From assembly GCA_964017185.1 (NCBI GenBank), contig OZ024878.1, positions 13,463,351 through 13,527,350 on the forward strand: DNA of 64,000 bases, in the 5' to 3' direction. The notes beneath the pieces are model-generated. The model was not told the DNA's origin. It made no database searches and worked only from the letters and a program-made list of their open reading frames with translations. This DNA is from Rugalucina vietnamica. Its lineage: Eukaryota; Mollusca; Bivalvia; Lucinida; Lucinidae. Both the position numbers and the translations under genes were made by a program. Within the stretch, counting starts at the first letter, position 1, and the number at the start of each line of letters is the position of its first letter. Positions 22,681-58,700 of this stretch are shown one piece after another.

Positions 22681-22850
22681 TGCCTGTCGCGTTGTGCATC
22701 TCGTAGGAGTACTCGATTTCATTCAGTATAACCGAATAATTCTGAATGACATAAACACGTGCATTTATATCCTTCTGAAAAGTTATTTCCATTCTAATCT
22801 GTTAACGGCAATATATGATTTTCTGTTTAATGATTCGGCAAAAGATGATC
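22681..22850 (+). repeat. Block X, copy A, left part
   Basis: Starts near CTGCCTGTCGCGTTGTGCAT and ends AAAGATGATC, where the Naiad copy is inserted. It continues without loss at 24951 after the insertion, as shown by the uninterrupted paralogue at 28827-29682. Confidence 0.85.
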
Positions 22851-22853
22851 AGG

Positions 22854-24330
22854 AGCTTGATGGTACCAGGGCTTATCTGGAGACAGATACTGATGAGGTG
22901 TCTGTAGTAAATGCCCACTTAAACGATTTACCTGTTAAGTTTTCTGTTTGTGTCAATGAAGGCCAAGACAAACTTCCTACGATGTATTGGTTACCTAAGC
23001 TTCACAAAAGACCATACAAAGCTAGATTTATTGCAAATTCTAGCTCTTGTACTACCACTGAACTTTCTAAATTATTAACTTCTTGTCTTACTGCTATCAA
23101 ATCTCATGTTATAAGATACTGTGAGACAGTGTATGAAACTTCAAATAAAAATTGGTTTTGGTCAATAAAAAATTCTGGTGAGGTGCTCAGTAAATTGAAG
23201 TGTAGAGGGTTCCGTGCGACAAGCTTGTCCACATATGATTTTTCTACTCTGTATACAACATTACCACATAATCTAATTAAAGAAAAACTTCTGGATTTGA
23301 TAGAGTGGACCTTCAAAAGGGCATTAAAAACTATGGTTCACTTTATTTGGCATGTAATGACAGAAAGGCTTTTTTCACTTCCTCTGACCAAAGTCGGTAT
23401 ACCCTTTGGTCATGTCAGAATGTGTGCGATGCCTTATCCTATCTCCTTGATAATATTTATATTAGATTTGGGACCAAGTTATACAGACAAATTGTTGGAA
23501 TTCCGATGGGTACAAATTGCGCACCTCTCGTAGCTGATTTATTTTTATACTGCTACGAAAGAGATTTCATGGATTCTCTTAACCATGATAATCAAGCTGA
23601 TGTTATCGAGGCTTTTAATTCCACATCTAGGTACCTCTATGACCTTTTGAACATTGACAACCCTTATTTTGAAGGTATGGTCAATCAAATTTATCCACCT
23701 GAACTTCAGTTGAACAAAGCTAATATCTCAGATACCGAAGCCCCCTTTTTAGATCTACATCTTTCTGTTGCAAATGGATTTGTTTCTTCTAAAATTTATG
23801 ATAAGCGCGATGACTTTGATTTTGATATAGTAAATTTTCCTTTTTTGGATGGTGACGTTCCTCGTCGTGCTTCTTATGGTGTATACATTTCGCAACTTAT
23901 TAGGTTTGCTAGAGTCTGCAATCATGTTACAGACTTCAACGCTCGAAATAAATGTTTAACGGCAAAACTTCTCCAACAGGGCTATCGGTATCATAAACTT
24001 CGAAAAACCTTTTCTAAATTTTATCGTAGACACTATGAATTGATTTCCAAATATAATGTTGGGTTAAAGACACTTTTAAGTGAGGGCCTTTCGGAACCTG
24101 AATTTTATGGTGACTTGGTTTACAAATTAAAGAAACTTAAAGGAATAAATGATTTTTCTCTTCAGTTCGGAAAAATCATATCACGTTACAGACGTATAGG
24201 TTATAACTTGAATGTTATGCGACAGTCTGCATGCTTAGTTTTTAACCCAATCATGGTTGATAACTATGCTGCCTTCTTTAATTGCACGCCGGTGGGTCGG
24301 GCGTCAGACTCTATGATGGCCCCGACTTAA
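22854..24330 (+). pseudogene. Naiad reverse transcriptase, broken copy
   Basis: The sequence matches the RT of copy 2 but is inactivated. It lacks the N-terminal part including the CxC linker. One A is missing from the A-run at 23325-23330 (five here, six in copy 2), shifting the frame, and the first catalytic aspartate of YLDD is changed to Tyr (YLYD, codon TAT at 23638-23640). A plus-strand frame that starts upstream at 22694 reads by chance from block X into the RT, so its first 50 or so residues are target DNA and not element. The reading frame ends at a TAA at 24328-24330, inside the predicted SECIS hairpin. Confidence 0.9.
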
Positions 24331-24376
24331 AGCTATTCATTTTAGTTGGTTGGGGCCGGAGCTTCTTGTCTGTTGC
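24301..24376 (+). promoter_or_regulatory. Predicted SECIS element, Naiad copy 1
   Basis: Identical in sequence to the hairpin at 54310-54385 described there: AUGA/GGAG core, ten-pair helix, AA in the apical loop 12 nt after AUGA, and a lower CAGAC/GUCUG helix. Confidence 0.6.
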
Positions 24377-24950
24377 TTGGCCCACCGGGGTCCAACTGGT
24401 GTTTTTCTTTTGCTCCGGAGTTAGTAGGTTATTCGGCGCCCAGGGATCTCCATCGTCGGGCAGCTTACTCAATCTGTGAGTCCTGGTTTTTGATTCATCA
24501 GGATGTTTATCATGATTTATTTGTTTGTTCTTGATGATTCATTGACTAGTTAGAGATTCACCAAGAGGACCGAAGAACTAACTAAATGTTGTGAACCACT
24601 GCAGAAGCTGAGGGTGAGGTTAGGTACCTGTAAAACCGGTTTAAGCCCGCCAGTAACTTTGTGTTACTGATCGTTCCAAGTCGATACTTCTGTGGTGGTT
24701 CTTTTTGTTTTATGTCTTGGTGTTTAAAATTTTTTGTGCTGTTGGCGCCTTAGGTATGTTTTCATATTTTTAGTTAAGTTAAGGTAACTGAGTGGCCACC
24801 TATTGGGAAAATAGCTGCTCATTCGGCTTACGATATGTTTCATGGTGTGAGTGCCTGATTGTTAGTTTGGTTTTTTCCCACCTCGGTTTTTGGAGTGGGG
24901 GTCTTTTTCTGGTTGCGCCTTTTCCTGATCTTTGCCTACTTGTACCTTTT

Positions 24951-25648
24951 CATTGTTCAAATGACATTACTCGGATTGATTCTTTGACAGCTACAAATGC
25001 TGACAAATCTCGATTTAATAGCTCTTGAATTGGTTAGATTCAATGTAAATTTTATTGTTCTTGATTTATCCGAGTCCATTGTTCCACTGTAAACCAGTGT
25101 TGCAAAATTACTAAAAGAGACATTACAATGCCAGAGAAAGTACGACATCTAAGGAGGTAAATTTTACAGTTGCACTTGTAGAATCCATGTTTATTGAATT
25201 TATGACTCTTGCTTGTGCAAAGGAGATCAAAGGACGGTCATAACGAAAGGATTATCATATCTCTGAGAGAGGTAATAAAGATGCTTATAAACGATAATTT
25301 CCTGTTGCACCACTGTCAATTGGTTTTATGGACTCATGTCACACGTGCATCAAGATTGCCTCATCCTATTCATAAGAATATAGGTCTTTAAAGACACACA
25401 TTTTATTTATTAGCACTCTAATGACTAAAATTCCTCAATTCGGCATTCATCGATTCCTGAAATATATTGGACAGCTATCTGAAATTGTTTGCTGGAAACA
25501 TATTGGCACTGGAGTGTGAACGCCATAGAATAATATTAACACAAGCTAAAATATAAAGAACCATAAGTTTTAAGCCTGGCCAGATAAACTATATGGGACA
25601 AGACCTTCTTTCGAAATGAAAATTATGTTTTGTAAAATCAGTTGCAAA
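24951..25648 (+). repeat. Block X, copy A, right part
   Basis: Paralogue of 28991-29682 and, in reverse, of 51246-52077 plus 54957-55400. It contains the sequence ATCCTATTCATAAGAATATA (25364-25383), which is the empty counterpart of the site into which Naiad copy 2 is inserted. Confidence 0.85.
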
Positions 25649-25986
25649 GTATAGGATATAACTTAAATGTTATGCGACAGTCTGCATGCTTAGTTTTTAA
25701 CCTAATTATGATTGATAAATATTCCTTAATTGTACGCCAATGGGTCGGGCGTCAGACTCTATGATGGCCCCGACTTAAAGCTATGCATTTAAGTTGGTTG
25801 GGGCTGGAGCTTCTTGTCTGTTTCTTGGCCCACCGGGATTCGACTGGTGTCTTTCTTTTGCTCCAGATTTTCAGTGTTGTTGTTAGGCGCCAAGGGCTGC
25901 CCATTGACGGGCAGCTTATTGTATCCTATTGTATCTGTGAGTCCTGTTTTTTTTTTTATTTTTTTTTTTTTTATTTTTTTTTTTTT

Positions 25987-26025
<39 letters not shown>

Positions 26026-26838
26026 CGCCAGTGATTTTACATTACTGATGTTCCAAGGCGATACTTCTGTGATAGTTCCTATTGTTTTTTTTTTTTTGTC
26101 TTGGTGTTTAAAAACTTTTTGTGCTGTTGGCGCCTTATGTATGTTTTCAAAATTGTCTACAACTGCAACTGCACGGTTTGAGTCTAGTGGCTTGACCATC
26201 GTGTTAGTAGGATTCCGGGTCGTTTCGCCAAGGACCGTGTAAACACCCAAAAACACCCATGCAAACCTCCCTTTGGTTGGTAACATTTGTACCAAGGGTG
26301 CAGTTGGTACCAAAAATGGGGCAAATTGTAAAATTCGTGGAATTGGTGCATGATTGCATTCTATCTAAGCAACAACGGAATGAAATGAACCGACGGGTCA
26401 CGTATGAAAGCTTTGACCGCGCCCCACCTGTGTAGCCAATTACACTCTATCCAAGCCACAACGGAATGAAATGAATCGACAGTATTGTGACGGTCGATTG
26501 TCAGGTATGAATGCTTTGACCGCGCAGCGTTTTATTTCTGTTCAGACAAATGCACCACGATGAAATGGGAGTACGGTCAGATTCTTTGACATTCTAGTTT
26601 ATATATGCGAAGCGTAGTCCAAGCTTTTTGTTAAAGCTTATACTTGTTTTAGTTAAGTTTAAACTTTAGGTAACTGAGTGGCCACCTATTGGAAAAATAG
26701 CTGCTCATTCGGCTTCCGCTATGTTTTAATGGTATAAGTACCTGATTGTTTATTTAGGTTTTTCCCACCTCGGTTTTTGGAATGGGAATCTTTTTCTGAT
26801 TGTGCCTTTTCCTGATCGTTGCCTACTTGTACCTTTTT
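25649..26838 (+). repeat. Naiad 3' fragment with two interruptions
   Basis: Begins within the last codons of the Naiad frame, includes a SECIS-like hairpin at about 25749-25824, and ends TTGCCTACTTGTACCTTTTT. It is interrupted by a T-rich/(ATT)n expansion at 25949-26024 and by about 490 bp of foreign sequence at 26147-26640 that joins TATGTTTTC to TTTTAGTTAAG of the tail. Confidence 0.8.
26147..26640. other. Unidentified insertion in the Naiad tail
   Basis: Interrupts the Naiad tail between two parts that are contiguous elsewhere. It holds an internal imperfect repeat (around CAACGGAATGAAATGAACCG and CACAACGGAATGAAATGAAT) and GC-richer text than its surroundings. It has no coding frame of note and no recognised family. 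Confidence 0.4.
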
Positions 26839-27056
26839 AAAGCATACACAGTGGACTTATGCTCAGCTACTTTGTAGTTAGCACATTAGGGTGTAAATAC
26901 ATGTCGTTTATATATATTATGGTCTGACTACACTGTTAACTGTTTGCTATTTTCGAACTACGTCAGTAGAATGTTGTGATACCTGGCACCATAATTAAAT
27001 AACGTTTCAAAAACAGCAAGATCATCATCAACAACAAATACAAACAATGCAACAGG

Positions 27057-27325
27057 CATTACGAAAACACGCCCATGTAATATACAAAATTTTCCTAATC
27101 TGTTAAAATTTTAGCTGAAAAAAAAAAGAATATTTTTTTTTTATTTTTGCTCAAAACACAGATTGCGGGTACAAGTTAAAACCGCCTCCGGCGCGAGGCG
27201 GTTCTTACAAGTACCCACAATCTATGCTTTAGATCAAAAATAAGAAAAATAAGTATACCCCTGCAAACCGCAGTTTTTCTATGTAAAAGTGGGGTTTTAG
27301 GAGGTATACTTTTCATGGACATTTT
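27057..27325 (-). mobile_element. Foldback MITE family M2, copy c
   Basis: Full-length inverted copy from CATTACGAAAACACGCCCAT to about CATGGACATTTTTTCTTATG, with the central palindrome around AACCGCCTCCGGCGCGAGGC. The corresponding place in block P copy A (near 21575) has no insertion. Confidence 0.7.
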
Positions 27326-27540
27326 TTCTTATGATAATGTTTTGTGCATTTTTCTGAGATACACGTACAAAAGCATCATTCAATCTGATTACCAGCTGAC
27401 ACAACAAGTGACAAGGTAAGAAAAGACTAGGAACCAGGGCATCCAGAGCCAACTTCCTCCAGAAAAGAAACTCCATAATTTCAATGGGAATTCACACAGA
27501 AGAAATGTTACCCAAAAGATGCCGATTAAATTGTATTACT

Positions 27541-27769
27541 TGAGCCACTGCTTGAGAAATCCAACAAATGCTTAGGCGAAAACAAAGGCGCAGATCAGCT
27601 GTGCAGAAATTGCAAAGCTGATAAGCGCCTTTGTTTTCGCTACACATGTTGTACAATATCTCGTCTATTTGAACCCAAAATTTCAAGTTTCTAGCTTGCT
27701 TCTGTGACTGTACAGACCGGACCAGGTCGGAAACCCAAACTGATGGTTTTCTCATGCACAGGCTCATTT
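27541..27769 (+). mobile_element. MITE family M1, copy e
   Basis: From GAGCCACTGCTTGAGAAATC to GCACAGGCTCA, with a slightly decayed palindrome. Orthologous by position to copy d at 21799. Confidence 0.7.
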
Positions 27770-28346
27770 TGTTGTGTCTGTCTTTAAAAGTTTCTGAGAT
27801 TCAGGTTGACAATAATGTTCCGCTTTGTTCGACAATGCTTCATTCGTATGCTTCGCTCAGACAAAACAGTATTCATCTTGTTCAGATGCAATTAGCATGG
27901 ACGTGTTGTCTACATAAATTAATCAGAAATCAAGCAAACAAGTCAGACATACGGGCGCCTTTACAAAGTCCATAGTTCTTATTTTGAACTGAAACCAATA
28001 GCCCTGTAAGCTATCATTTGAGTAAGTTACATTTGTTAACTTTGCTCCCATTCAGCTATGGCCCAGACGTTTGTATGAAAAATAGCAGTATAAGGAGCAC
28101 TGCTTGAACTTGAAAAACGCCTTCCATCGCGCTTCAAAGGCACTTATTTATACTTCAAAGAATCTTGTCTATTCACAGCATATGGCTTCAACAATAAATA
28201 ATTGTTCAGTTACACGACAGCCTTTGTATATCTGGGTGCAGCTATGATATTTTATTACATATAAAAAGTGTACCTCGGTCAGAAAAGGACATGGCTAGGA
28301 CCTTGTAACATGTTTAATGTTGCCAATTATTTGCATACCATCGTGT

Positions 28347-28774
28347 ATCTATCTATATATCTATCTATCGATCGACCGATCTATCTATCTATCTATCACC
28401 ATGATCGATCATCATCATCATTATCGATCGATCGATCTGTCTGTCTGTCTATCTGTCTATCTATCTATCTATCGTTCCAAGTCGATACTTCTGTGGTGGT
28501 TCTTTTTGTTTCATGTCTTGGTGTTAAAAAAAAAATTTTGTGCTGTTGGCGCCTTATGTATGTTTTCATATTTTTAGTTAAGTTAAGGTAACTGAGTGGT
28601 CACCTATTGGGAAAATAGCTGCTCATTCGGCTTACGAAATGTTTTTATGGTATAAGTACCTGATTGTTAGTTTGTTTTTTCCCACCTCGGTTTTTGGAGT
28701 GGGAATCTTTCTCTGATTGCGCCTTTTCCTGATCTTTGCCTACTTGTACCTTTCTATGACTGTTTCTATCTACA

Positions 28775-28820
<46 letters not shown>

Positions 28821-28822
28821 TT
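28347..28822 (+). repeat. TATC microsatellite split by a Naiad tail
   Basis: Imperfect TATC/GATC repeats at 28347-28470 and TATC units at 28774-28822 flank a 285-bp Naiad tail (about 28472-28754) that runs from GTTCCAAGTCGATACTTCTG to GCCTACTTGTACCTTTC. The tail therefore inserted within the microsatellite. Confidence 0.9.
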
Positions 28823-28826
28823 ACTG

Positions 28827-29682
28827 CCTGTCGCGTTGTGCATCTCTTATGGAGTACTCGATTTCAGTATTAACGAATAATTCAGAATGACATAATCACG
28901 TGCATTTATATCCTTCTGAAAAGTTATTTCCATTCTAATCTGTTAACGGCAATATATGATTTCCTGTTTAATGATTCGGAAAAAGATGATCATTGTTCAA
29001 ATGACATTACTCGGATTGAGTTTTTGACAGCTACAAATGCTGAAAAATCTCGATTTAATAGCACTTGAATTGGTTAGATTCAATGTAAATTTTATTGTTC
29101 ATGATTCATCCGATTCCATTGTTCCACTGTAAACCAGTGTTGCAAAATTACTAAAAGAGACATTTTAATGAAAGGGAAAGTACGACATCTTATGGAGGTA
29201 AATTTTACAGTTGCATTTGTAGAATCCATGTTTATTGAATTTATGACTCTTGCTGGTGCAAAGGAGATCAAATGAATCATAATGAAAGGATTATCCTATC
29301 TCTGCGAGAGGTAATAAAAATGCCTATAGACGATAATTTCCTGTTGCACCACTGTCATTTGGTTTTATAGACTCATGTCACACGTGCATCAAAATTGCCT
29401 CATCCAATTCATAAGAATATAGGTCTTTAAAGACACACATTTTATTTATTAGCACTCTAATGACTAAAATTCCTCAATTCGGCATTCATCGATTCCTGAC
29501 ATATATTGGACAGCTATCTGAAATTGTTTGCTGGAAACATATTGGCACTGGAGTGTGAACGCCATAGAATAACATTAACACAAGCTAAAATATAAAGAAC
29601 CATAAGTTTTAAGCCTGGCCAGATAAACTATATGGGACAAGACCTTATCTCGAAATGAAAATTATGTTTTGTGAAATCATAG
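28827..29682 (+). repeat. Block X, copy B (empty Naiad site)
   Basis: Uninterrupted version of block X. The junction AAAGATGAT|CATTGTTCAA at 28990/28991 is the pre-insertion state of the site filled at 22851-24950. It also has the unfilled equivalent of the site occupied by Naiad copy 2 (near 29413). Confidence 0.9.
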
Positions 29683-29952
29683 GATAAATTTAAATGTTAT
29701 GCGACAGTCTGCATGCTTTGTTTTAACCCAATTATGGTTGATATCTATTCCTTAATTGCATGCCGGTGGGTCGTGCGTCAGACTATATGATGACCCCGAC
29801 TCTAAGCTATGCATTTAAGTTGGTTGGAGCTGGAGCTTCTTGTCTGTTTCTTGGCCCACCGGGGTTCGACTAGTGTTTTTCTTTTGCTCCAGATTTTCAG
29901 TGATGTTGCTAGGCGCCAAGGGCTGCCCATTTCCGGGCAGCTTATTGTATCT
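29683..29952 (+). repeat. Naiad fragment
   Basis: Covers the end of the coding frame, a degenerate SECIS region and the first part of the tail, from about ATGTTATGCGACAGTCTGCA to GGGCAGCTTATTGTATC. The 3' end of the tail is missing. Confidence 0.8.
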
Positions 29953-32480
29953 TATGGTAACTTATCTGAGATACCAAAATAAAGATACAAAATGCATAAC
30001 TTATTCAAGACTCAACGCATCCGCTATCATGTCTGACATTAATTTTGACAAGAAAATCTCAGTAGTATAAAGGAAGAAGCTGATATCAGACACATAACTA
30101 AACGACAATCATTTGAATTATGTCACAAGAAACAAACCATTTTGCTATCCGGACGCTACTGGAAAAGAATCAAACCAACAAAGAGAAATTTAGTTCTTAA
30201 CATTTTGAACACTGGAAAAATCACATATGTGCGCATTTAATTTCTAGAACGGGTCCATCAAGCACTACGTCCGTGTGGATAGTATGTTTCCGTCCATGTT
30301 CCATGACACCTCTGTCACGAGGTACCGAAGTGCTACTAAAACTAGGCTAGCCAACTGATCTAGCCCACATAGTAAAATAATTTTATTTGTTTGGTTTTAA
30401 AATAGGCTTTAAAAGTACAAGAAATGAAACGAAACAAGACAGTTCAAATTGTCTGAGTGACAACTATATATATCTGATCAAGTAAATTAATTGCTTCTTG
30501 CGTAAAACCAGAAAAAGACAAGTAAACAATGTTAAAGGTAATTGTCCTTTTAGATAACAATTTTTAGGCGCAATTCAAGTTTTAATTCTATTGCGGGGGC
30601 TCCTCAAGGAATTATCATTGCAATCAAATCAAAATTTAAATTAAGTATCGGTTCATACATTTTAAAAGTCTTTTTTTCTATTACTGATAAGAGTCTTTTT
30701 AGCTGCCTCGCTATTTTTGTCATATAGTTGAAATACTGTACGCTTCAGAGGGATTGCATTACTATTATAACAACATTCGCCGCCAGTCTGTATCAAGGAC
30801 GTAAAAATTCTCATTTACACAACATGTCAAAAGAAGATTCTTTACCCCTTACATATCGCTTCGGAGTCCGACGTTCTTCCATAGAGTTCATTCCGAAATC
30901 ATGCCCATGCAATATACAGAGATTTTATCAGCTGTAAAGATTTAAAATTTCATCAGAAAATTGTGATTTTTTCTTATTTTTGCTCAAAACAAAGATTTAG
31001 TGTACACGTTAGAACCGCCTCGCCGAGAAAGGTAAGGAAAATAGGTATACTCATGTAAACTTCAGTTTTGCTATATAAAAGTGGGGTATAGTGGGGTATA
31101 CTTTTAATGGACATATTTTCCTGATGCATCTCGCCCCGGAGTCCGACGTTCTTCCACAGAGTTACCACACTCCCCTGATTTTAGATACGTGTAAACGTCT
31201 TAGCTGGATGGCTGCTCATCAATATCCTGAAACTGCGAAATGCCTGTGATTTTTATAGGATTCTTGATTTATTACATTCGTGCACGCAAATTGTCTATTT
31301 CATTGTGTCACTTTGATTTGAAACAGGTATAAGATTTCACGAATTTGATTGCTCTGTAACTTGTATCCGTTGCCTCATCAATTTTTTTTAGATTTACTTC
31401 GTTTTTATAGTTGGATGCAGTATCGTAGCGCAACAATGCCACGTCAGTTGGTCCAATTAAAAGCGACCACCTGCAAATAAAATGTTTTATTTACTGGCAT
31501 AGAGTGGACAATTCCATATAGCACGTATTTAGTTTGTGTGCTTAATTTTTCATTAACACTTCTGACGCATAATCATAGAAAGCATGTGAACTTAATGGTT
31601 CCGAGTTCTAACACTTCTCCGCTCCACATAGATATATTTTACTGAACATCTTCTTTCTTGTCAGAAGACCTCACAATAGTTTACTAAACTAGGACTGTGC
31701 CACGGAGATCGTTATCTACTAAAACAATTAAATGATAAGCTTTGTGTATGTGTCATTTATCCAGATTTGCTCGAAATACAATTAATTTTCTTGATCAGAT
31801 ATACGTACCTCGTATTATAGTTTCATCTTGACATTTAAACTGTTTTAAACTGTTCCAAAGGATCAAGCTTTTATATTTTAATCTTTCAAATTCCCTTCAA
31901 GTGCTCTTTATTTCAGAAAATATATCTTGCTTGTACATTCTACTACATAGGAATGTTCAGACGAAGTTTGAGTCAATCTGTAATAGCGTTGTCTTTCACT
32001 AAACCCGTGCGGTGGAAAAGCATGCTCACCGACCAAGGGTGGTTTGCTGCGCAATATACTCGACACTTTCTCGCTTCACAAAGTTTCTAGTTTGAAATTT
32101 GTATATCTATTTATAGCACACCTTTATAGTGTATTCAATATGTATTTAAGACCTTTTCAGGAGCATTAAAGGACAAAACGAAATAATGTTGTTTTGAGCA
32201 GTTCATTGACAATGTGATACTTAATGTTTTGTTTTCATAACGACCCGATCGACAGTTGCACTCATCAATGGCGTTAACGTCAGAAAATCCCATGAAATAC
32301 GTCTGTCAACTATCATGGTGTGAAACAGGCGACAAGGAGTCGGTACAAGCATAGACAAACACACCTCCATAAAAACTGAGCGGGAAATCACTGAAGGAAC
32401 ATATATGTAAGATAAACTAAAATATGAATTATAACTGTTATATCCAGGGAGTCCCGATAGGTAACCGGTCCTCAACTGTC
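29953..32480 (+). repeat. Left arm of large inverted duplication
   Basis: The sequence recurs in reverse complement at about 45950-49345 (minus a Naiad insertion there). Shared landmarks include TGTCTGACATTAATTTTGAC, the M2 copy at 30895-31130, the stretch around AAAGCGACCACCTGCAAATA and GACAAGGAGTCGGTACAAGC. The arms are diverged by substitutions and small indels, so this is an old duplication or two copies of a dispersed repeat. It holds no coding frame that I can support. Confidence 0.8.
30895..31130 (-). mobile_element. Foldback MITE family M2, copy d
   Basis: Starts CGAAATCATGCCCATGCAAT and ends near ACATATTTTCCTGATGCAT, with a shortened central palindrome (GTTAGAACCGCCTCGCCGAG). Its counterpart in the right arm is at 48345-48570. 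Confidence 0.65.
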
Positions 32481-46083: not shown

Positions 46084-46892
46084 AGGTACAAGTAGGCAAA
46101 GATCAGGAAAAGGCGCAATCAGAAAAAGATTCCCACTCCAAAAACCGAGGTGGGGAAAAAACCAAACTTACAATCAGGTACTTATACCATGAAACATATC
46201 GTAAGCCGAATGAGCAGCTATTTTCCCAATAGGTGGCCACTCAGTTACCTTAACTTAACTAAAAATATGAAAACATACATAAGGCGCCAACAGCACAAAA
46301 AATTTTAAACACCAAGACATAAAACAAAAAGAACCACTACAGAAGTATCGACTTGGAACGATCAGTAACACAAAGTTACTGGCGGGCTTAAACCGGTTTT
46401 ACAGGTACCTAACCTCACCCTCAGCTTCTGCAGTGGTTCACAACATTTAGTTAGTTCTTCGGTCCTCGTGGTGAATCTCTAACTAGTCAATGAATCATCA
46501 AGAACAAACAAATAAATCATGATAAACATCCTGATGAATCAATAACCAGGACTCACAGATTGAGTAAGCTGCCCGACGATGGAGATCCCTGGGCGCCGAA
46601 TAACCTACTAACTCCGGAGCAAAAGAAAAACACCAGTTGGACCCCGGTGGGCCAAGCAACAGACAAGAAGCTCCGGCCCCAACCAACTAAAATGAATAGC
46701 TTTAAGTCGGGGCCATCATAGAGTCTGACGCCCGACCCACCGGCGTGCAATTAAAGAAGGCAGCATAGTTATCAACCATGATTGGGTTAAAAACTAAGCA
46801 TGCAGACTGTCGCATAACATTCAAGTTATAACCTATACGTCTGTAACGTGTTATGATTTTTCCGAACTGAAGAGAAAAATCATTTATTCCTT
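46084..46892 (-). mobile_element. 5'-truncated Naiad insertion with empty-site paralogue
   Basis: Holds the complete Naiad tail, the SECIS-type hairpin (46656-46731) and the last 50 or so codons. In the left arm the flanks are contiguous (AAACACACCTCCATAAAAAC near 32370), so the insertion borders are known. No target duplication beyond a couple of bases is seen. Confidence 0.85.
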
Positions 46893-48344
46893 TAAGTGTG
46901 TTTGTCTATGCATGTACCGACTCCTTGTCGACTTTTTCACATTATGATAGTCGACAGACGTATTTCATGTGACATTCTGACGTTCACTTTAGTGATTAGT
47001 GCAACTGTCGGTTGGGTTGTTATGAAAACAAAACATTTAACATCACCTTGTCAGAGAACTGCTCAAAACAATATTACTTCCTTTTGTCCTTTAATTCTCC
47101 TAAAATGCTCTTAAATACATAAGAATATACTGTAACTGTGTGCTATAAATAGATATACAAATTGCAACCTCGAAACTTTGTGAAGCGAGTAAGATTTGAG
47201 TATATAGCGCAGCAAACCACCCATGGTGGGTAAGCATGCTTTTCCATCGATTGGGCATAGCAGTCGCTTGGTTCGGCTCACGTAACATTTTAATTGGAAG
47301 CGGGTGGCTATGTAATGTCAGCTGCCAGCTGCCAGACCGGAGTTGCCATACCAAGGTAGTTCCCAGGCCAAGACTCTGCTCGGACGGAGAAGTAATGTAA
47401 CGGTGTGCTATAAATAGATATGCAAAGTTCAAACTCGAAACTTTGTGAAGCGAGTAAGTGTCAAGTGTATAGCACAGAAAACCACCCATGGTCGGTGAGC
47501 ATGTTTGTTACCCCCGACGGGGTTTAGCGAGAGACAACGATAAAAATATTGATGTCTGAACATTCCTATGTAGTAGAATGTACAAGCAAGATATTTTCTG
47601 AAATAAAGAGCACTTGCAGGGAATTTGGAAACTATAATTCGCGGTACGTATATCTGATCAAGAAAATCAATTGCATTTCGAGCAAAACTGGATAACTGAT
47701 ACATACACAACGCTTATCAGTTAATTGTATTAGTTACTGTAGACAGCAATCTCCGTGGCACAGTCCTAGTTTCGTACTATTGTGAGGTCTTCTGACAAAA
47801 AAGAAAATGTCCAGTAACATATATTTATTTGGAGCGGTGAAGTGTTAGAACTCGGAACCATTAAGTTCACATGCTTTCTCAGAGTCTATTATTATGCATC
47901 AGAAATGTAAATGAAAATTTACGTGCATAAACGAAATAAATGCTATATAGAATTGACTAGTCATGCCAGTAAACAAAACATTTTATTTGCAGGTGGTCGC
48001 TTTTAACTGGACCAACAGACTCGTTTGGAACGACGTGGCATTTTTGCGCTATGATACTGCATCCAACTATAAAAACAAAGTAAATCTATAAAATTGATGA
48101 GACAACGGATATAAGTTAGAGAGCAATCAAATTCGTGAAATCTTATACCTGTGACGAATCAAAGTGACACAATGAAATAGACAATTTGCGTGCACGAATG
48201 TAATAAATCAAGGATCCTGTTAAAATCACAGGCATTTCGCAGTTTCAGGATAGTGATGGGCCACGATCCAGCTAAGACGTTAACACGTATCGAAAAATCA
48301 GGGGAGTGTGGTGACTCTGTTGAAGAACGTCGGACTCCAAAGCG

Positions 48345-50195: not shown

Positions 50196-51245
50196 GTTAA
50201 AGTGTGCAATGATCAGGAAATGGCGCAACCAGAAAGAAATCCCCACTCCAAAAACCGAGGTAGGAAACATTATTAACAATAAGGTACTTATACTAAGAAA
50301 ACATATAATAAGTGAGTGAGCAGCTCTTTTCCCAGTAGGTGGCCACTCAGTTACCCAAACATTACTAAAATATGAAAACGTACATAAGGTGCAAACAGCA
50401 CAAAAATTCAACACCAAGACATAATACAATAGGATCCACCACAAGTATCGCCATGGAACGGCCAGTCAAATTACTGGCGGGATTATGGCCATGTAAAACT
50501 AGTTTGAGCACGCTAGTAATTTTATATTACTGTCAGATCGTTCCAAGGCGATACTTCTGTTGTGGTTCTTATTGTTTTATGTCTTGCTGTTGAATTTTTG
50601 TGCTGTTTGCACCTTATGTGCGTTTTCATATTTGTGTTAGGTTTATGTATCTGAGTGGCCGCGTATTGGGAAATAGCTGCTCACCCGGCTTACAATGTGT
50701 TTTCTTAGTACAAGTTTCTAATTGTCAATTTAGTTTTTTCCCACTTCGGTTTTTAGAGTGGGAATTTCTTTCTTATTGTGCCTTTTCCTGATCATTGCTT
50801 ACTTGCACCTTTTTACAGGTACCTAACCTCACCCTCAGCTTCTGCAGTTAATCACAGCATTAAGTTTTTGTTCGGTACCCGTGGTGCATCTCCAACTAGT
50901 CAATGAATCATCATAGACAAACAAATAAATCGTGATAACGTCATAGATGAATCAATAACGAGGACTCGCAGATTCAATAAGCTGCCCGACACGGGGGAGT
51001 CCTGAGAGCCTAACAACATTACTGAAAATCTGGAGCAAAAGACAAACACCAGTCTAACCCCGGAGGGCCAAGCAACATACAAGAAGCTTCAGCCCCAACC
51101 AACTAAAAAGAATAGCTTAAGTCTGAGCCATCATAGAGTCTGACGCCCGCCCTACCGGTGTGCAATTAAAGAATATTTGTCAATCATGATTGGGTTAAAT
51201 ACTAAACATGCAAACTGTCGCATAGCATTTAAGTTATATCCTATA
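50196..51245. repeat. Three abutting Naiad tails in alternating orientation
   Basis: A minus-strand tail (50196-50500) meets a plus-strand tail (50515-50815), which meets a longer minus-strand fragment (50816-51245) that reaches into the coding end. The first two form an inverted repeat of about 300 bp per arm. Such tandem/inverted structures are typical of Penelope-like elements. Confidence 0.85.
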
Positions 51246-52077
51246 CTTTGCAACTGATTTTACAATACTTAATTTTTATTTCGAAAAAAAAGGTATTGTC
51301 CCATCAAGCACATAGCATTGACGTTTGAATTGTAGAAGCAAATTAAATATCCATTAATCCCATAGAACCCTTATTTCTGAATCGCTGAGATACGCTCATG
51401 TAATAAATTTATAATGTTCTTACTCTGAGGAATAAGTGAGAAACAATTCTTCTTGCGATTCTTCTGTCTTTCTACTATAACACCGAAACCAAAAAGAAAA
51501 TTGTTTCCCCGTACACCAGACATAGTGATTACATTTTTATTTCGGTCCTTTGAGATCAGTAAAGATATTCAGAGTGTTCAAAACACTCAAGTTTAGAAAC
51601 ATACTTCTAAGCAATGCTGTTATTGTTTGACCCCGTTAAGGAAAGTGTCTTTGATTTAGACTTCTCGAATTAATTCTCAAAATTGCAGCACAATGGTTTG
51701 GCGTTCGTTGTCGATTTTATACTGATGAGGGTTCATTACCCGAAATTGCACAATATAGTCTATACTATCTCCCTTTGAATGTTTTACTGCTTCCAAAGGA
51801 TCAAACCATTATAATTTATTTAGATCATTTTGGACATTTTGGACCTTTTATTTTGTTTGTAAACGTCAATGTCCTGTACATACAGTTTATCTGGCCATGG
51901 TTTAAACATATTTAGCTTGTGTTAATATTACTCCATGGAGTTCACACTCCAGTGCCAATATGTTACCAGCAATCAATTTCAGATGACTGTCCAATATATT
52001 TCAGGAATCGATGAATGCCAAAGTCATTATTAGAGTGCTAATAAATAAAAAAGTGTATTTTTAAAGACCTATATTCT
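51246..52077 (-). repeat. Block X, copy C, distal part
   Basis: Reverse complement of 25380-25648, with about 580 bp of extra sequence at roughly 51303-51880. It ends CCTATATTCT exactly where Naiad copy 2 begins. Confidence 0.75.
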
Positions 52078-54339
52078 AAGGCTAATAGATTTTACGATAG
52101 AAATCATCAAATGTATGACGCTGCACTGTTAACAAGATGTTATACTCAGCATGCTCTTCGTCCATTTATCGATTCCGAATCTAATCACATTAGAAGTTTT
52201 ATTAAAATTCCTTTCATCAATAAAGGAATTGACTTTATTGATTTACCAAGCATATTCCAGGATAAATCAGTGATACAGTCTATACCTACCTACTTCCAAA
52301 ATTCAGAACCTCCTATTATTTGTTACAAATATAACAAACCAATCAGAAATACTATTTTTAATTTCAATAAACTTGTTTCTGATCTTGATATCCATGCTAA
52401 TACTCCTAAGTCTTGAGATTGTAAAGATTCAAGATATGTTTATCAACCAGCTGGACATATAGTTACTGGAAATTTAAAAATAATTTCGGATTCTAGAATT
52501 CGCAAAATTGTTTCTAAAGGTCCGAAATATAGATTCCCTTCCTACATTAACTTCGACAAATGTAGAGAGGAGATTGCATCTGCATTAAATGATTTCGGTA
52601 ATCGATGGTGTAAACGAGAGGGTGTTGAGGATAATGCTCTTAAAGAATGGAAAAGAAGTATCTTCACTATCGTGGATAAACGTATTAAGTTTTATTCACA
52701 AAATACTAATCTTTTACCTCCTAAACCCAAATCGTCATTTAGGCATTTGAAGCAGGGTATCCAAGAATTTCATAGAAAGTATGTCTTGGTTCCGGCAGAT
52801 AAAGCCGCTAACAATGTTGTTGTCGTTTGTAGGCTTCACTACGTTAACACCTTAAAACAGGAGCTTGATGGTACCAGGGCTTATCTGGAGACAGATACTG
52901 ATGAGGTGTCTGTAGTTAATGCCCACTTAAACGATTTACCTGTTAAGTTTTCTGTTTGTGTCAATGAAGGCCAAGACAAACTTCCTACGATGTATTGGTT
53001 ACCTAAGCTTCACAAAAGACCATACAAAGCTAGATTTATTGCAAATTCTAGCTCTTGTACTACCACTGAACTTTCTAAATTATTAACTTCCTGTCTTACT
53101 GCTATCAAATCTCATGTTATAAGATACTGTGAGACAGTGTATGAAACTTCAAATAAAAATTGGTTTTGGTCAATTAAAAATTCTGGTGAGGTGCTCAGTA
53201 AATTGAAGTGTAGAGGGTTCCGTGCGACAAGCTTGTCCACATATGATTTTTCTACTCTGTATACAACATTACCACATAATCTAATTAAAGAAAAACTTCT
53301 GGATTTGATAGAGTGGACCTTCAAAAGGGCATTAAAAAACTATGGTTCACTTTATTTGGCATGTAATGACAGAAAGGCTTTTTTCACTTCCTCTGACCAA
53401 AGTCGGTATACACTTTGGTCATGTCAGAATGTGTGCGACGCCTTATCCTATCTCCTTGATAATATTTATATTAGATTTGGGACCAAGTTATACAGACAAA
53501 TTGTTGGAATTCCGATGGGTACAAATTGCGCACCTCTCGTAGCTGATTTATTTTTATACTGCTACGAAAGAGATTTCATGGATTCTCTTAACCATGATAA
53601 TCAAGCTGATGTTATCGAGGCTTTTAATTCCACATCTAGGTACCTCGATGACCTTCTGAACATTGACAACCCTTATTTTGAAGGTATGGTCAATCAAATT
53701 TATCCACCTGAACTTCAGTTAAACAAAGCCAATATCTCAGATACCGAAGCCCCCTTTTTAGATCTACATCTTTCTGTTTCAAATGGATTTGTTTCTTCTA
53801 AAATTTATGATAAGCGCGATGACTTTGATTTTGATATAGTAAATTTTCCTTTTTTGGATGGTGACGTTCCTCGTCGTGCTTCTTATGGTGTATACATTTC
53901 GCAACTTATTAGGTTTGCTAGAGTCTGCAATCATGTTACAGACTTCAACGCTCGAAATAAATGTTTAACGGCAAAACTTCTTCAACAGGGCTATCGGTAT
54001 CATAAACTTCGAAAAACCTTTTCTAAATTTTATCGTAGACACTATGAATTGATTTCCAAATATAATGTTGGGTTAAAGACGCTTTTAAGTGAGGGCCTTG
54101 CGGAACCTGAATTTTATGGTGACTTGGTTTACAAATTTAAGAAACTTAAAGGAATTAACGATTTTTCTTTTCAGTTCAGAAAAATCATAACACGTTACAG
54201 ACGTATAGGTTATAACTTGAATGTTATGCGACAGTCTGCATGCTTAGTTTTTAACCCAATCATGGTTGATAACTATGCTGCCTTCTTTAATTGCACGCCG
54301 GTGGGTCGGGCGTCAGACTCTATGATGGCCCCGACTTAA
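52078..54339 (+). CDS. Naiad RT protein with in-frame UGA at the CxC motif
   Basis: From the first base of the element 753 codons run in one frame to TAA at 54337-54339, with a single internal UGA (codon 113, 52414-52416). The codons around it read PKS-UGA-DC, which is a CxC motif with UGA in place of the first Cys. A CxC linker between the N-terminal endonuclease and RT is the hallmark of Naiads. RT features: VPADK near 235, LPKLHK at 308-313, YDFSTLYT, GIPMGTN at 477-483 and YLDD at 522-525 with both catalytic Asp present. The N-terminal endonuclease is missing through 5' truncation. There is no ATG needed at 52672; the frame continues upstream through the UGA. If UGA is decoded as selenocysteine (see the SECIS entry) this is one protein; if not, the copy is a pseudogene with one nonsense codon. 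Confidence 0.85.
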
Positions 54340-54385
54340 AGCTATTCATTTTAGTTGGTTGGGGCCGGAGCTTCTTGTCTGTTGC
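54310..54385 (+). promoter_or_regulatory. Predicted SECIS element across the Naiad stop codon
   Basis: Read as RNA: lower helix GCG-U-CAGAC (54310-54318) with GUCUG-U-UGC (54377-54385); internal loop UCU against CUUCUU; core AUGA (54322-54325) opposite GGAG (54367-54370), allowing tandem G-A pairs; upper helix GGCCCCGACU with GGUUGGGGCC (ten pairs with wobbles); apical loop with AA at 54338-54339, exactly 12 nt after AUGA. These are the defining parts of a eukaryotic SECIS. The TAA stop lies at the loop end of the helix. The hairpin is kept at 24301-24376 and 46656-46731 and with changes at 25749-25824. Decoding is not proven. Confidence 0.65.
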
Positions 54386-54956
54386 TTGGCCCACCGGGGT
54401 CCAACTGGTGTTTTTCTTTTGCTCCGGAGTTAGTAGGTTATTCGGCGCCCAGGGATCTCCATCGTCGGGCAGCTTACTCAATCTGTGAGTCCTGGGTTTT
54501 GATTCATCAGGATGTTTATCATGATTTATTTGTTTGTTCTTGATGATTCATTGACTAGTTAGAGATTCACCACAAGGACCAAATAACTAACTAAATGTTA
54601 TGAACCACTGCAGAAGCTGAGGGTGAGGTTAGGTACCTGTAAAACCGGTTTAAGCCCGCCAGTAACTTTGTGTTACTGATCGTTCCAAGTCGATACTTCT
54701 GTAGTGGTTCTTTTTGTTTTATGTCTTGGTGTTTAATTTTTTTTGTGCTGTTGGCGCCTTATGTATGTTTTCATATTTTTAGTTAAGTTAAGGTAACTGA
54801 GTGGCCACCTATTGGGAAAATAGCTGCTCATTCGGCTTACGGTGTGTTTTATGGTATAAAGTACCTGATTGTTACTTTGGTTTTTTCCCACCTCGGTTTT
54901 TGGAGTGGGAATCTTTTTCTGATTGCGTCTTTTCCTGATCTTTGCCTACTTGTACC

Positions 54957-55400
54957 TTCTTATGAATAGGATGAGGCAATTTTTATGCACGTGTGACATG
55001 AATCCATAAAACCAACTGACAGTGGTGCAACAGGAATTTATCGTTTATAGGCATCTTTATTACCTTTATTACCTTTCGCAGGGATATTATAATCATTTCG
55101 TTATGACTGTCCTTTGATCTCCTATGCATAAATTCAATAAAACATGGATTCTACAAACAAATGCAACTGTAAAATTTACCTCCTTAAGATTTCGTACTTT
55201 CTCTTAGTAATATTGCAACGCTGGTTTACAGTGGAACAATGGAATCGGATAAATCAAGAACAATAAAATTTACATTGAATCTAACCAATTCAAGTGCTGC
55301 TAAATCGAGATTTGTCAGCATTTGTAGCTGTCAAAGAATCAATCAGAGTAATGTCATTTCAACAATGATTATCTTTTGCAGAATCATTAAACAGGAAATA
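54957..55400 (-). repeat. Block X, copy C, middle part
   Basis: Reverse complement of 24951-25380. It links Naiad copy 2 on its left and the LINE on its right; the rest of block X resumes at about 60955-61095. Confidence 0.85.
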
Positions 55401-55710: not shown

Positions 55711-58700
55711 TTAATTTCTAATACGAGCTTTTTCAGCATGGTAGACAAATTTAGCTAAATTTAGAAGGGTTTTCTTTGAACTCGAGCTCATGAGACTATC
55801 AAATTTATTAAGATTTGGCCAATGACAGTAATACGGGGGTAGATATTTACGCCTCAGTTCTAATAAGTTGGGGCAAACTTATAAAAAATGATATTCACTT
55901 TCTACGACATTTAAATTACAAAATTGACAGATTCTATTTTCCCGAGAAATATCAAGATGCCTTCCTTTTTCAATTGCTAGGTTATGAGCTGAAACACGAA
56001 ATTTACACAGGGGTATTCTATATTTCTTTTCTGAGATGCAATCTAAGTATTTTTCTTGTGTGAATGCATGTTTAAATCTGCAATATGAACTAAGTCTAGA
56101 CGAGTTATTTATCTCGGTATACCATGTTTGCTGAAACACATCAATGATTCTCTGTTTTACTGCTGAAAACGGTACACCGTTAACACCTTGGGTTAACCAT
56201 AAATTTGAAAAGCCATGAGACTGTAGTATATCTTTAATTTGCGATGCCCAGTTGGTTCCCCCATAGTTGACATTTTTATCTGCGTCTGATCTAAGCATGC
56301 GATATATCATGTTTGTTAGAGAATTTTCATGGTCATTTACTATTTTGAACCAATATCTGATCATGTTTATTTTTCGTATAACATTAAGTGGTACACGACC
56401 GAGTTCACCATACAAACAACTTAAGTTTGTCGATTGTCTGACGTATAAAATTTTCCTACAAAACTTATTATGGACAATTTCAATGTCATTTGCTTCATGG
56501 CCACCCCAGACTTCTGAGCCGTAATTCAAGATAGATCCTACAAGTGCATCGAACAATTTACATTTTTGGGAGGTGGGTAACTCTACGCGGGTAAACAAAG
56601 AAAAAAGATTATGTAGTGCAAAAGAAGCATGTTCTGCAATGCATTTTTGTGTCCGGTGCCAGTTTCCATTCTTGAAAAAATGCACACCCAGGTATTTAAA
56701 CGACTTTACAACTTCAAGTTTGGTATTGTTAAGATAAAAATCATAACTTGTGTGGCGACCATTTTCAAATATCACTGTTTTTGTTTTTGCAGTATTGATT
56801 TTTAGACCCCATGTTTTACAATATTGTTCAATATCTGATAACATTGCTTGTAGTGTTTCTGGAGACTTAGCAAAAATGACCTGATCATCGGCATATAGAA
56901 GAAGGAATAGTTTAATATCATCTACCGTGAAAATTCCATTAAGATTATCATTTATGCATTGGTTAATATCGTTGATAAACATCATAAAAAGCATCGGTGA
57001 ACTCGGGTCACCTTGTTTGACGCCAATATTTGATTCAATATATTCAGAAAGTCGGCCATTATGTCTTATACAATTTTTAACGACAGAGTACATGGATTTT
57101 AGTGCATTTACCATCTTGCTGCTAACATTTTCTATAAGAAGTTTATGCCACAGCGTAACCCGGTCTATTTTATCGAAGGCCTTCTCAAAATCAATGAATA
57201 CACAATAAAAATTTTGTTTTGAATTAAGAACTTTGGAAATTATAGCTTGAAGGATAAAGATACAATCTGTGGTGGATTTTCCTTTCTGAAAACCAAATTG
57301 GTTCTTGGATAGACTTTCATATTTTTCGGCCCATTTGTTGAGTCGGTTCAACAAAATTTGTGAGTAAATTTTGGATAAAATATTACTTATGGTAATGCCT
57401 CTATAATTTTTTGCCAAACCAGGATCGCCACTTTTGAAGATAGGTGCTATTATACCATGACCCCAATTTTCTGGGTACTGACCAGAGTTAAAAATGTGAT
57501 TAACAATATTTAATAGATGACCTGCAATGAGATCAAATGACGATTTAATGGCTTCAGAACAAACATTATCAGGACCATAAGCTGAGTTATTCTTTTGATG
57601 AAACGTTGCTGACTTTAATTCTTCTAAGCTAATGCTACAGTCCAAGTCGGGGTCAAGTTCATTTCTGTTTAGGGGGACATCGTCATTCTCGGTATGCACA
57701 GTATCGTCTTCATTTGAGTATACTTTTTGAAAATGTTCTAGTAAATCTTTCAATTCTAGTTTTTGTCCATTTCTTTTTTTATTTTTAAGGAACGATTTTA
57801 CTTTACGCCAGAATTTTTTGGGTTGCTTTTTTGCCTCAAAACTAAGTTTCTGACCTTCAGATATTTTATATTTTGTCTTAGCCTTATACTTAATTTTATT
57901 ATATTTGGTACGAGATCTGACAAACGAGCGCCTGTTTAGTTCATTTTTATGTTTCACATAGCAGTTACGCGCTTGTGTGAATTCTTTTTTTGCGTTTCTG
58001 CACTCACTGTTAAACCATGGTGATGCATTTATTTTTTCATTTTTTGCATCCTTGTTTTTCGTATGCACTGTTTTGCCAAAAACTGCACTTGATTTTTCGG
58101 CGAGAAGTGTACTCAAACGCTCAACTTTATCATTTACTGTACAATGTGGGTCATTAAGAGAAAACAAAGAAGGTAATGATTGTTCTATACACTTGCAAAA
58201 ATGGGTTCTTTGTCATTATCCCAGGATAATTTATTTTGTGATGAATTTATGCATTCATTTGTATCATCAATAACATTTCTATGCAGAAAAGAAAACAGTA
58301 AAGGGGAGTGATCTGAAAATTCATTTGGTGGCAATACTTTAAAACTATGAATCGTATTTATGTCACTATTATGTAAAAGAAGATAATCCACAGTGCTTAC
58401 ACCTTGTGCTGAGTGAAACGTTAAGTGCCCAATATTGCGGTCGTCATCCAGGCGACCATTTGCAATTATAAAGCCTGAACTTTTGCATAATTCTAATAGT
58501 TTTCTACCATGTTGGTCTACAAAATGATCTTGATTTACTCGCAATGGTACATGTGACATTTCGGCATATAAATCATTATCTTCCAAATATCTATCAAAAT
58601 CTAAAATATCGGGGAAATCTGATGTACGGCCATTCATATCACCAGTAACGTATACTTTGCCTAAAGATGAATATGATTCTATACCCTTTTCTATTTCTTC

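Follow-up and report, generated by a model that had tools for sequence, protein, structure and literature searches.

A UGA codon that probably encodes selenocysteine in a Naiad-type Penelope-like retroelement of the lucinid clam Rugalucina vietnamica

How should an in-frame UGA be read when it falls on a conserved cysteine codon of a retroelement protein? The question arises in a stretch of 64,000 nucleotides from the genome of Rugalucina vietnamica (contig OZ024878.1, positions 13,463,351 to 13,527,350; the whole stretch is called the window), which carries a Penelope-like element of the Naiad type. Naiads have an N-terminal endonuclease, a CxC linker, a reverse transcriptase (RT), a pseudo-LTR/tandem structure and a high copy number. 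Comparison of sequences makes it very probable that the UGA encodes selenocysteine (Sec). The copy in the window is laid out as follows.

52079..54957 (3' end approximate), + strand: Naiad Penelope-like element, 5'-truncated, without the N-terminal endonuclease (siblings and comparison of element ends)
52079..54339, + strand: truncated coding frame with the linker end, the UxC motif and the reverse transcriptase, closed by the TAA (frame reading)
52414..52416, + strand: UGA at residue 437 of the full frame, the first CxC position, probably decoded as selenocysteine (frame and copy comparison)
52420..52422, + strand: TGT at residue 439, the motif's second Cys, which is kept (invariant in the six-sequence alignment A1)
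52828..52830, + strand: TGT, residue 575, Cys here and an apparent UGA site in relatives (from protein records)

Seven siblings in the same genome match this element at 98.6-99.95%, and since all seven alignments start exactly at 52079, the element is 5'-truncated there; comparison of element ends places its 3' limit near 54957. The reading frame is open from 52045 to the TGA at 52414-52416 and then runs for 640 codons to the TAA at 54337-54339; in the full-length frame of 1077 residues this corresponds to roughly residues 325-1077. Counted from 52079 it has 753 codons, with the UGA at codon 113 as the sole in-frame stop of the window Naiad, within PKS-UGA-D-C (52408-52422 reads AAG TCT TGA GAT TGT, that is K-S-UGA-D-C). 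Re-reading the frame thus agrees with an earlier, sequence-only reading of this DNA, which had placed a single in-frame stop, a UGA, on the first Cys of the CxC motif in a 753-codon frame. That reading also held that a chance nonsense mutation would rarely hit such a codon, yet in the full frame of sibling L018, 139 codons are a single change away from TGA and 28 of them encode Cys, so that a chance hit on a Cys codon is not very rare. The significance of the UGA comes instead from the presence of three UGAs, all on Cys positions, together with a SECIS element, the pattern of selection and the sharing across copies.

The frame of the full-length sibling L018 is 1077 residues long and contains UGA three times, at 133, 144 and 437, but neither UAA nor UAG; some of the other Naiad copies carry frameshifts or extra stops. 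Upstream of the RT, L018 has motifs that look GIY-YIG-like by eye (VYVLT...QYVGQT...R..EH), while Pfam gave no match; the YxDD catalytic motif of the RT, also assigned by eye, is FNSTSRYLDDLLN. A Pfam search of the Naiad protein recognised neither GIY-YIG nor RT, and a PDB sequence search with it returned no meaningful match. The endonuclease motif region reads DLD-U-KSMDLVYVLT-U-NTNNC-RMQYVGQT in L018 and LT-C-YAANVIYAIT-C-KKCKKQYVGET in L029, a distant Naiad (31% identical) whose codons at the equivalents of 133, 144 and 437 are TGT, TGT and TGC. The alignment of the two therefore places the second UGA (144) on what we take to be the first Cys of the CCHH motif of these endonucleases. Between endonuclease and RT, the motif is PKS-U-D-C here and Cys-x-Cys in L029 and in the relatives P0041, P0083 and P0086. 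The Cys partner is kept both at UxC (437/439) and at U-x4-C (144/149). Further UGAs at endonuclease Cys positions had been predicted from the letters alone; full-length siblings have them at 133 and 144, and the window copy, having no endonuclease, does not. L029 was the one relative returned by a search of genome contigs (QIJL01000205.1), where it lies as a Cys-type Naiad in a Flavobacteriales MAG contig, probably through eukaryotic contamination; a search of viral contigs for Naiad relatives found none. A predicted structure of the window protein (alignment A1, 6 sequences) had a mean pLDDT of 49, too poor to place the Sec, and was set aside.

Sec-encoding Naiads are already known from clams and spiders, and the present element adds a further case. 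According to work by Craig et al. in MBE (2021), spider and clam Naiads reportedly became selenoprotein-encoding independently, with several Sec and without canonical hammerheads. The element shares with those clam and spider Naiads, as reported, the endonuclease, the CxC linker, the RT, the pseudo-LTR/tandem structure, the many copies and the several Sec, and it is possibly the very element described there.

How far does the substitution extend among protein relatives? Of the best 120 of 308 relatives of the N-terminal part, 66 (identity 55-99%) stop at position 436 or one residue to either side; the remaining listed ones have W (8), C (9) or S (1) at 437, or end elsewhere (36). Eight of the best 120 of 819 relatives of the RT part span codon 437, five with W and three with C. 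Tryptophan stands at both 133 and 144 in 6 of the 120 listed N-terminal-part relatives, the other 114 of which begin later, and P0122 has it at all three sites (133, 144 and 437). As far as protein records can tell, W in these relatives probably represents TGA translated under a code in which TGA is Trp. This reading is supported by P0012 and P0018, whose non-homologous N-terminal flanks contain W (6 of 61 and 3 of 14 residues, respectively); the flanks of P0007, P0026 and P0087 look homologous and have a W count of 0.

All nine relatives with Cys437 have a computed end at 574, just before residue 575, which is Cys in the window Naiad family and in L029. Among the listed RT relatives, the 48 that cover this site have C (34), W (13) or R (1), and 18 further RT matches start at window-numbered residue 250, two after the residue-575 site. 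The pattern suggests that residue 575 is a fourth site at which Cys and Sec alternate, but W at 575 could be true Trp. Two of the relatives, P0043 and P0047, are filed under Candidatus Thiodiazotropha MAGs. These bacteria are symbionts hosted by lucinid clams, and the naming suggests that related elements exist in lucinid clams.

The mosaic bears on what the Sec is for. It is possible that Sec beside the RT was favoured by selection as a stronger nucleophile or a redox switch, in line with the reactive Sec-X-Cys pair proposed in the sequence-only reading, rather than being a tolerated substitute for Cys. The Cys partners kept at 437/439 and 144/149 speak for selection, as do listed relatives down to about 55% identity that end at 437; against it, the nine listed relatives with Cys at 437 that end just before 575 look like interchange, and within the selenocysteine reading selection for Sec appears rather unlikely.

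Decoding of UGA as Sec calls for a SECIS element, and one sits at the end of the frame, downstream of the UGA in the same predicted RNA.

54314..54381, + strand: SECIS element, Rfam SECIS_1, 39 bits (gathering 35); fold -28 kcal/mol, z -4.4
54337..54339, + strand: UAA stop inside the SECIS, forming exactly its 3-base unpaired bulge on the apical side (predicted fold, alignment and frame)

The window holds three SECIS matches above gathering, each inside a Naiad copy, and 11 of the 12 sibling loci scanned (out of 40 fetched) have at least one, L026 having none; in the distant Cys-type Naiad L029, no SECIS match was found up to E 5. The frame end, ATG ATG GCC CCG ACT TAA, furnishes the AUGA core of the SECIS. 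In the predicted fold the ORF's own UAA is the unpaired apical-side bulge of the element, an unexpected arrangement. It appears to be inherited among relatives, to judge from their C-termini: 61 of the 120 listed protein relatives span this end, and 41 of the 61 finish in SDSMMAPT (26) or SDSMMVPT (15), where MM again means AUGA because Met has one codon. No published description of a SECIS/stop overlap or of a twister-like fold in Naiads was found among the titles and abstracts listed. Mix et al. (2007), as described in PMC6769590, reported a SECIS within the coding frame of the fowlpox virus GPX selenoprotein. The two cases share a SECIS that overlaps coding sequence downstream of the UGA, and differ in that the Naiad SECIS straddles the stop instead of lying within the frame and that the protein is a retroelement's (PMC6769590).

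For the host's Sec machinery the evidence is tRNA-Sec, with two candidate loci over the cut-off in the genome (79 and 71.2 bits); the other 22 listed hits reach at most 46.2 bits and fall under it. The tRNA-Sec model also matched in all 14 control genomes, over the cut-off in 5, so that the two hits rest on their scores. Because a single SECIS has to serve all three UGAs and also overlaps the stop codon, decoding may be inefficient.

Could the UGA instead be a nonsense mutation that arose in a single source copy and spread through its amplification, with intact copies providing the RT part in trans? The sequence-only reading had named its own refutation, namely TGT or TGC at this codon in most other copies; this did not materialise in the copies scored. 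Codon 113 (residue 437), aligned across genome copies as that reading had proposed, is TGA in 39 of 39 stretches, and the codons at 133 and 144 are TGA in 18 of 18 and 19 of 19. These counts come from 45 stretches of more than 250 codons, the window included, with some loci giving more than one; shorter stretches (<=250 codons) were excluded, as were L029 and two duplicate loci, L046 and L047. The loci were fetched around matches of a DNA search (20) and via a protein search (20). In the DNA search, whose 500-base query spanned the codon, the best 40 of 1797 candidates were scored and all were nearly identical. The sample is biased toward near-identical copies, and because those fetched are mostly 97-99.9% alike, the shared UGA is by itself weak evidence; any mutation of the source would be common to all such copies, which favours amplified nonsense, as does the truncation of the window copy itself.

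Searches with protein queries are less biased. With P0012, which has Trp at the site, an in-frame TGA was found in 67 of 67 scored copies (the best of 24,907 first-look candidates), and with P0041, which has Cys there, in 54 of 54 (the best of 23,023), TGA being tallied anywhere in the match, whatever its position. Stops other than TGA occurred in 2 of the 67 (one TAA, one TAG) and in none of the 54; more than one TGA per match was seen in 4 and 2 copies, respectively. P0056, a query lying wholly downstream of codon 437, gave 86 scored copies, none with a stop inside the match. Their open frame is exactly 640 codons in 59, the length expected if the frame starts right after codon 437, shorter in 22 and longer in 5. 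L050, the one inspected among the five longer ones, is truncated downstream of codon 437, and a frame of 933 codons, as expected of a full-length Cys version, was found in none of the 86 scored copies. First-look candidates, an unscored figure, ranged from 23,023 to 31,908 over the three protein queries.

Differences between copies were also compared with the random expectation of 3.1-3.7 non-synonymous changes per synonymous one. Downstream of UGA437, singleton variants are synonymous in 70 cases and non-synonymous in 45, and shared variants in 79 and 32. Between UGA144 and UGA437 (residues 145-436) the figures are 39 and 34 for singletons and 18 and 7 for shared variants. The synonymous excess on both sides of UGA437 indicates that the frame was selected as protein on both sides in the source lineage. 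The few data for the endonuclease part (residues 1-132) are 5 synonymous against 14 non-synonymous singletons, close to random, and 2 against 0 shared variants; no constraint was found there among singletons. Amplified nonsense thus has to face three UGAs that all lie at Cys positions, no sign of a Cys version among the 67, 54 and 86 scored copies (each the best of a larger candidate list), selection on both sides of the codon, a SECIS, and 66 of 120 listed relatives, at 55-99% identity, that end at the same place; it is very improbable.

Equally improbable is a UGA read through as some other amino acid, or kept as a regulated stop giving separate endonuclease and RT products: long open frames lie between the UGAs and, UGA recoding being generally incomplete, shorter products are likely too, but Sec is what the SECIS and the coincidence with Cys positions indicate, and nothing else is needed. 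A partial regulatory role of the UGA may exist beside Sec.

The reading as selenocysteine is therefore preferred, and the proposal of a selenoprotein retroelement made from the letters alone gains support from the shared UGA, the further UGAs, the SECIS and the tRNA-Sec hits. A single Naiad protein would comprise GIY-YIG-like endonuclease motifs, the UxC linker and the reverse transcriptase, with three Sec each replacing a conserved Cys, presumably where the endonuclease and the linker have thiol or metal-binding sites. The one SECIS at the frame end would recruit the host tRNA-Sec machinery during translation. Once a SECIS is present, Cys and Sec codons would be interchangeable by single mutations, which may have produced the site-by-site mosaic seen in the relatives.

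The element is not alone in its surroundings. Two other Naiad pieces in the window carry the remaining SECIS matches.

22766..24372, + strand: second Naiad copy, residues 559-1077, with a SECIS at 24305-24372
46660..46896, - strand: Naiad 3' fragment, with a SECIS at 46660-46727

Directly upstream of the window copy lies a diverged 3' piece of a related Naiad in inverted orientation (50811-51246, - strand), and at 55879-58212 (- strand) there is a 777-codon open frame that looks LINE-type reverse transcriptase-like by eye. Tandem or inverted 3' parts adjoin many of 20 fetched copies, a pseudo-LTR feature. Elsewhere in the genome Naiads form head-to-tail arrays with a constant spacing of 4226 bp, five at G000:C15:40644735-40664170 and three at C11:53184392-53195375.

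Penelope-like elements can carry hammerheads in the repeated pseudo-LTR part, for which dimer action has been reported (PMC7761336). No Rfam match to a hammerhead ribozyme was found in the window or in the sibling loci scanned. The 3' region of the window Naiad has a different predicted fold, possibly a new twister-like one.

54602..54710, + strand: twister-like fold in type-P5 order (fold z -5.8; Rfam twister-P1; covariation)
54602-54616/54696-54710, + strand: twister-like P5
54621-54624/54654-54657, + strand: twister-like P2
54651-54653, + strand: twister-like UAA
54661-54666/54672-54677, + strand: twister-like P3
54679-54682/54691-54694, + strand: twister-like P4
54627-54628/54685-54686, + strand: twister-like T1 pseudoknot

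In this fold a closing stem surrounds one arm plus two hairpins, an arrangement that matches the order of a type-P5 twister. The type-P5 form is named in PMC10085705. The Rfam twister-P1 score of 20.2 bits (17.9 in an older copy) is far below the gathering cut-off of 67.2; covariation is seen at the proposed pseudoknot. Over 16 aligned copies the named structure is paired in 94.2% of cells, compared with 28.6-55.8% when it is slid along the alignment. None of 500 shuffles reached its paired fraction or its covariation score, while the number of pairs with both sides changed was reached by 6 and that of further pair types by 77; the control is soft, such counts being inflated because the aligned copies are related. 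One pair of the proposed T1 is GC in 14 copies, AU in 1 and UA in 1, and so paired in 16 of 16, and a P3 pair is split evenly between CG (8 copies) and UA (8); one T1 position reads as unpaired. The alignment takes 16 of 21 distinct stretches, three being omitted (window 50492, L021 2122, L016 2795) because they could not be aligned along the full length of the fold and two (window 46444, L028 1585) because they are near-identical to rows kept, and its counts use the hand-named structure, the MFE version of the arm being left out.

By eye, no intramolecular P1 supported by variants was found in the 16-copy alignment. At the expected place of P1 (54631-54650) stand two 8-base palindromes, AGGTACCT and AACCGGTT, which in some older copies are changed to other palindromes (ATGGCCAT; AATCGATT, AACTAGTT); self-complementarity is kept in some variants, not in all. 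Palindromes in place of P1 bring to mind the hammerheads of Penelope-like elements that cleave as dimers (PMC7761336). The likeness to those elements lies in a small self-cleaving-type motif in the pseudo-LTR, here predicted from the fold; unlike them, the window Naiad has a twister-like fold and no matched hammerhead (PMC7761336). Truncated twister ribozymes in RTE retrotransposons were announced there as in preparation (PMC7761336). The Naiad motif resembles these in tying a twister to a retrotransposon, and type-P5 forms in its stem order (PMC10085705); unlike the RTE twisters, the putative ribozyme here lies in another class of retroelement and at another location (PMC7761336). The tandem arrays of 4226-bp period would give such a ribozyme a role.

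A wider picture may tentatively be drawn, with doubt somewhat outweighing confidence. The last 650 bases of the Naiad RNA would combine a SECIS whose apical bulge is the ORF stop, so that termination and Sec insertion compete, with a divergent type-P5 twister, possibly dimeric through the palindromes that replace P1. Such a twister would process tandem transcripts to 4.2-kb units, much as hammerheads presumably do in other Penelope-like elements, while Sec and Cys would swap at four sites across relatives.

The locus thus presents a selfish element apparently reliant on host decoding of selenium, and, since this Naiad is abundant and little diverged, one that is directly testable. The stop/SECIS overlap and the twister-like fold are RNA features open to experiment, and with their apparent Cys/Sec mosaic the relatives provide a natural series in which to ask why selenocysteine replaces cysteine.
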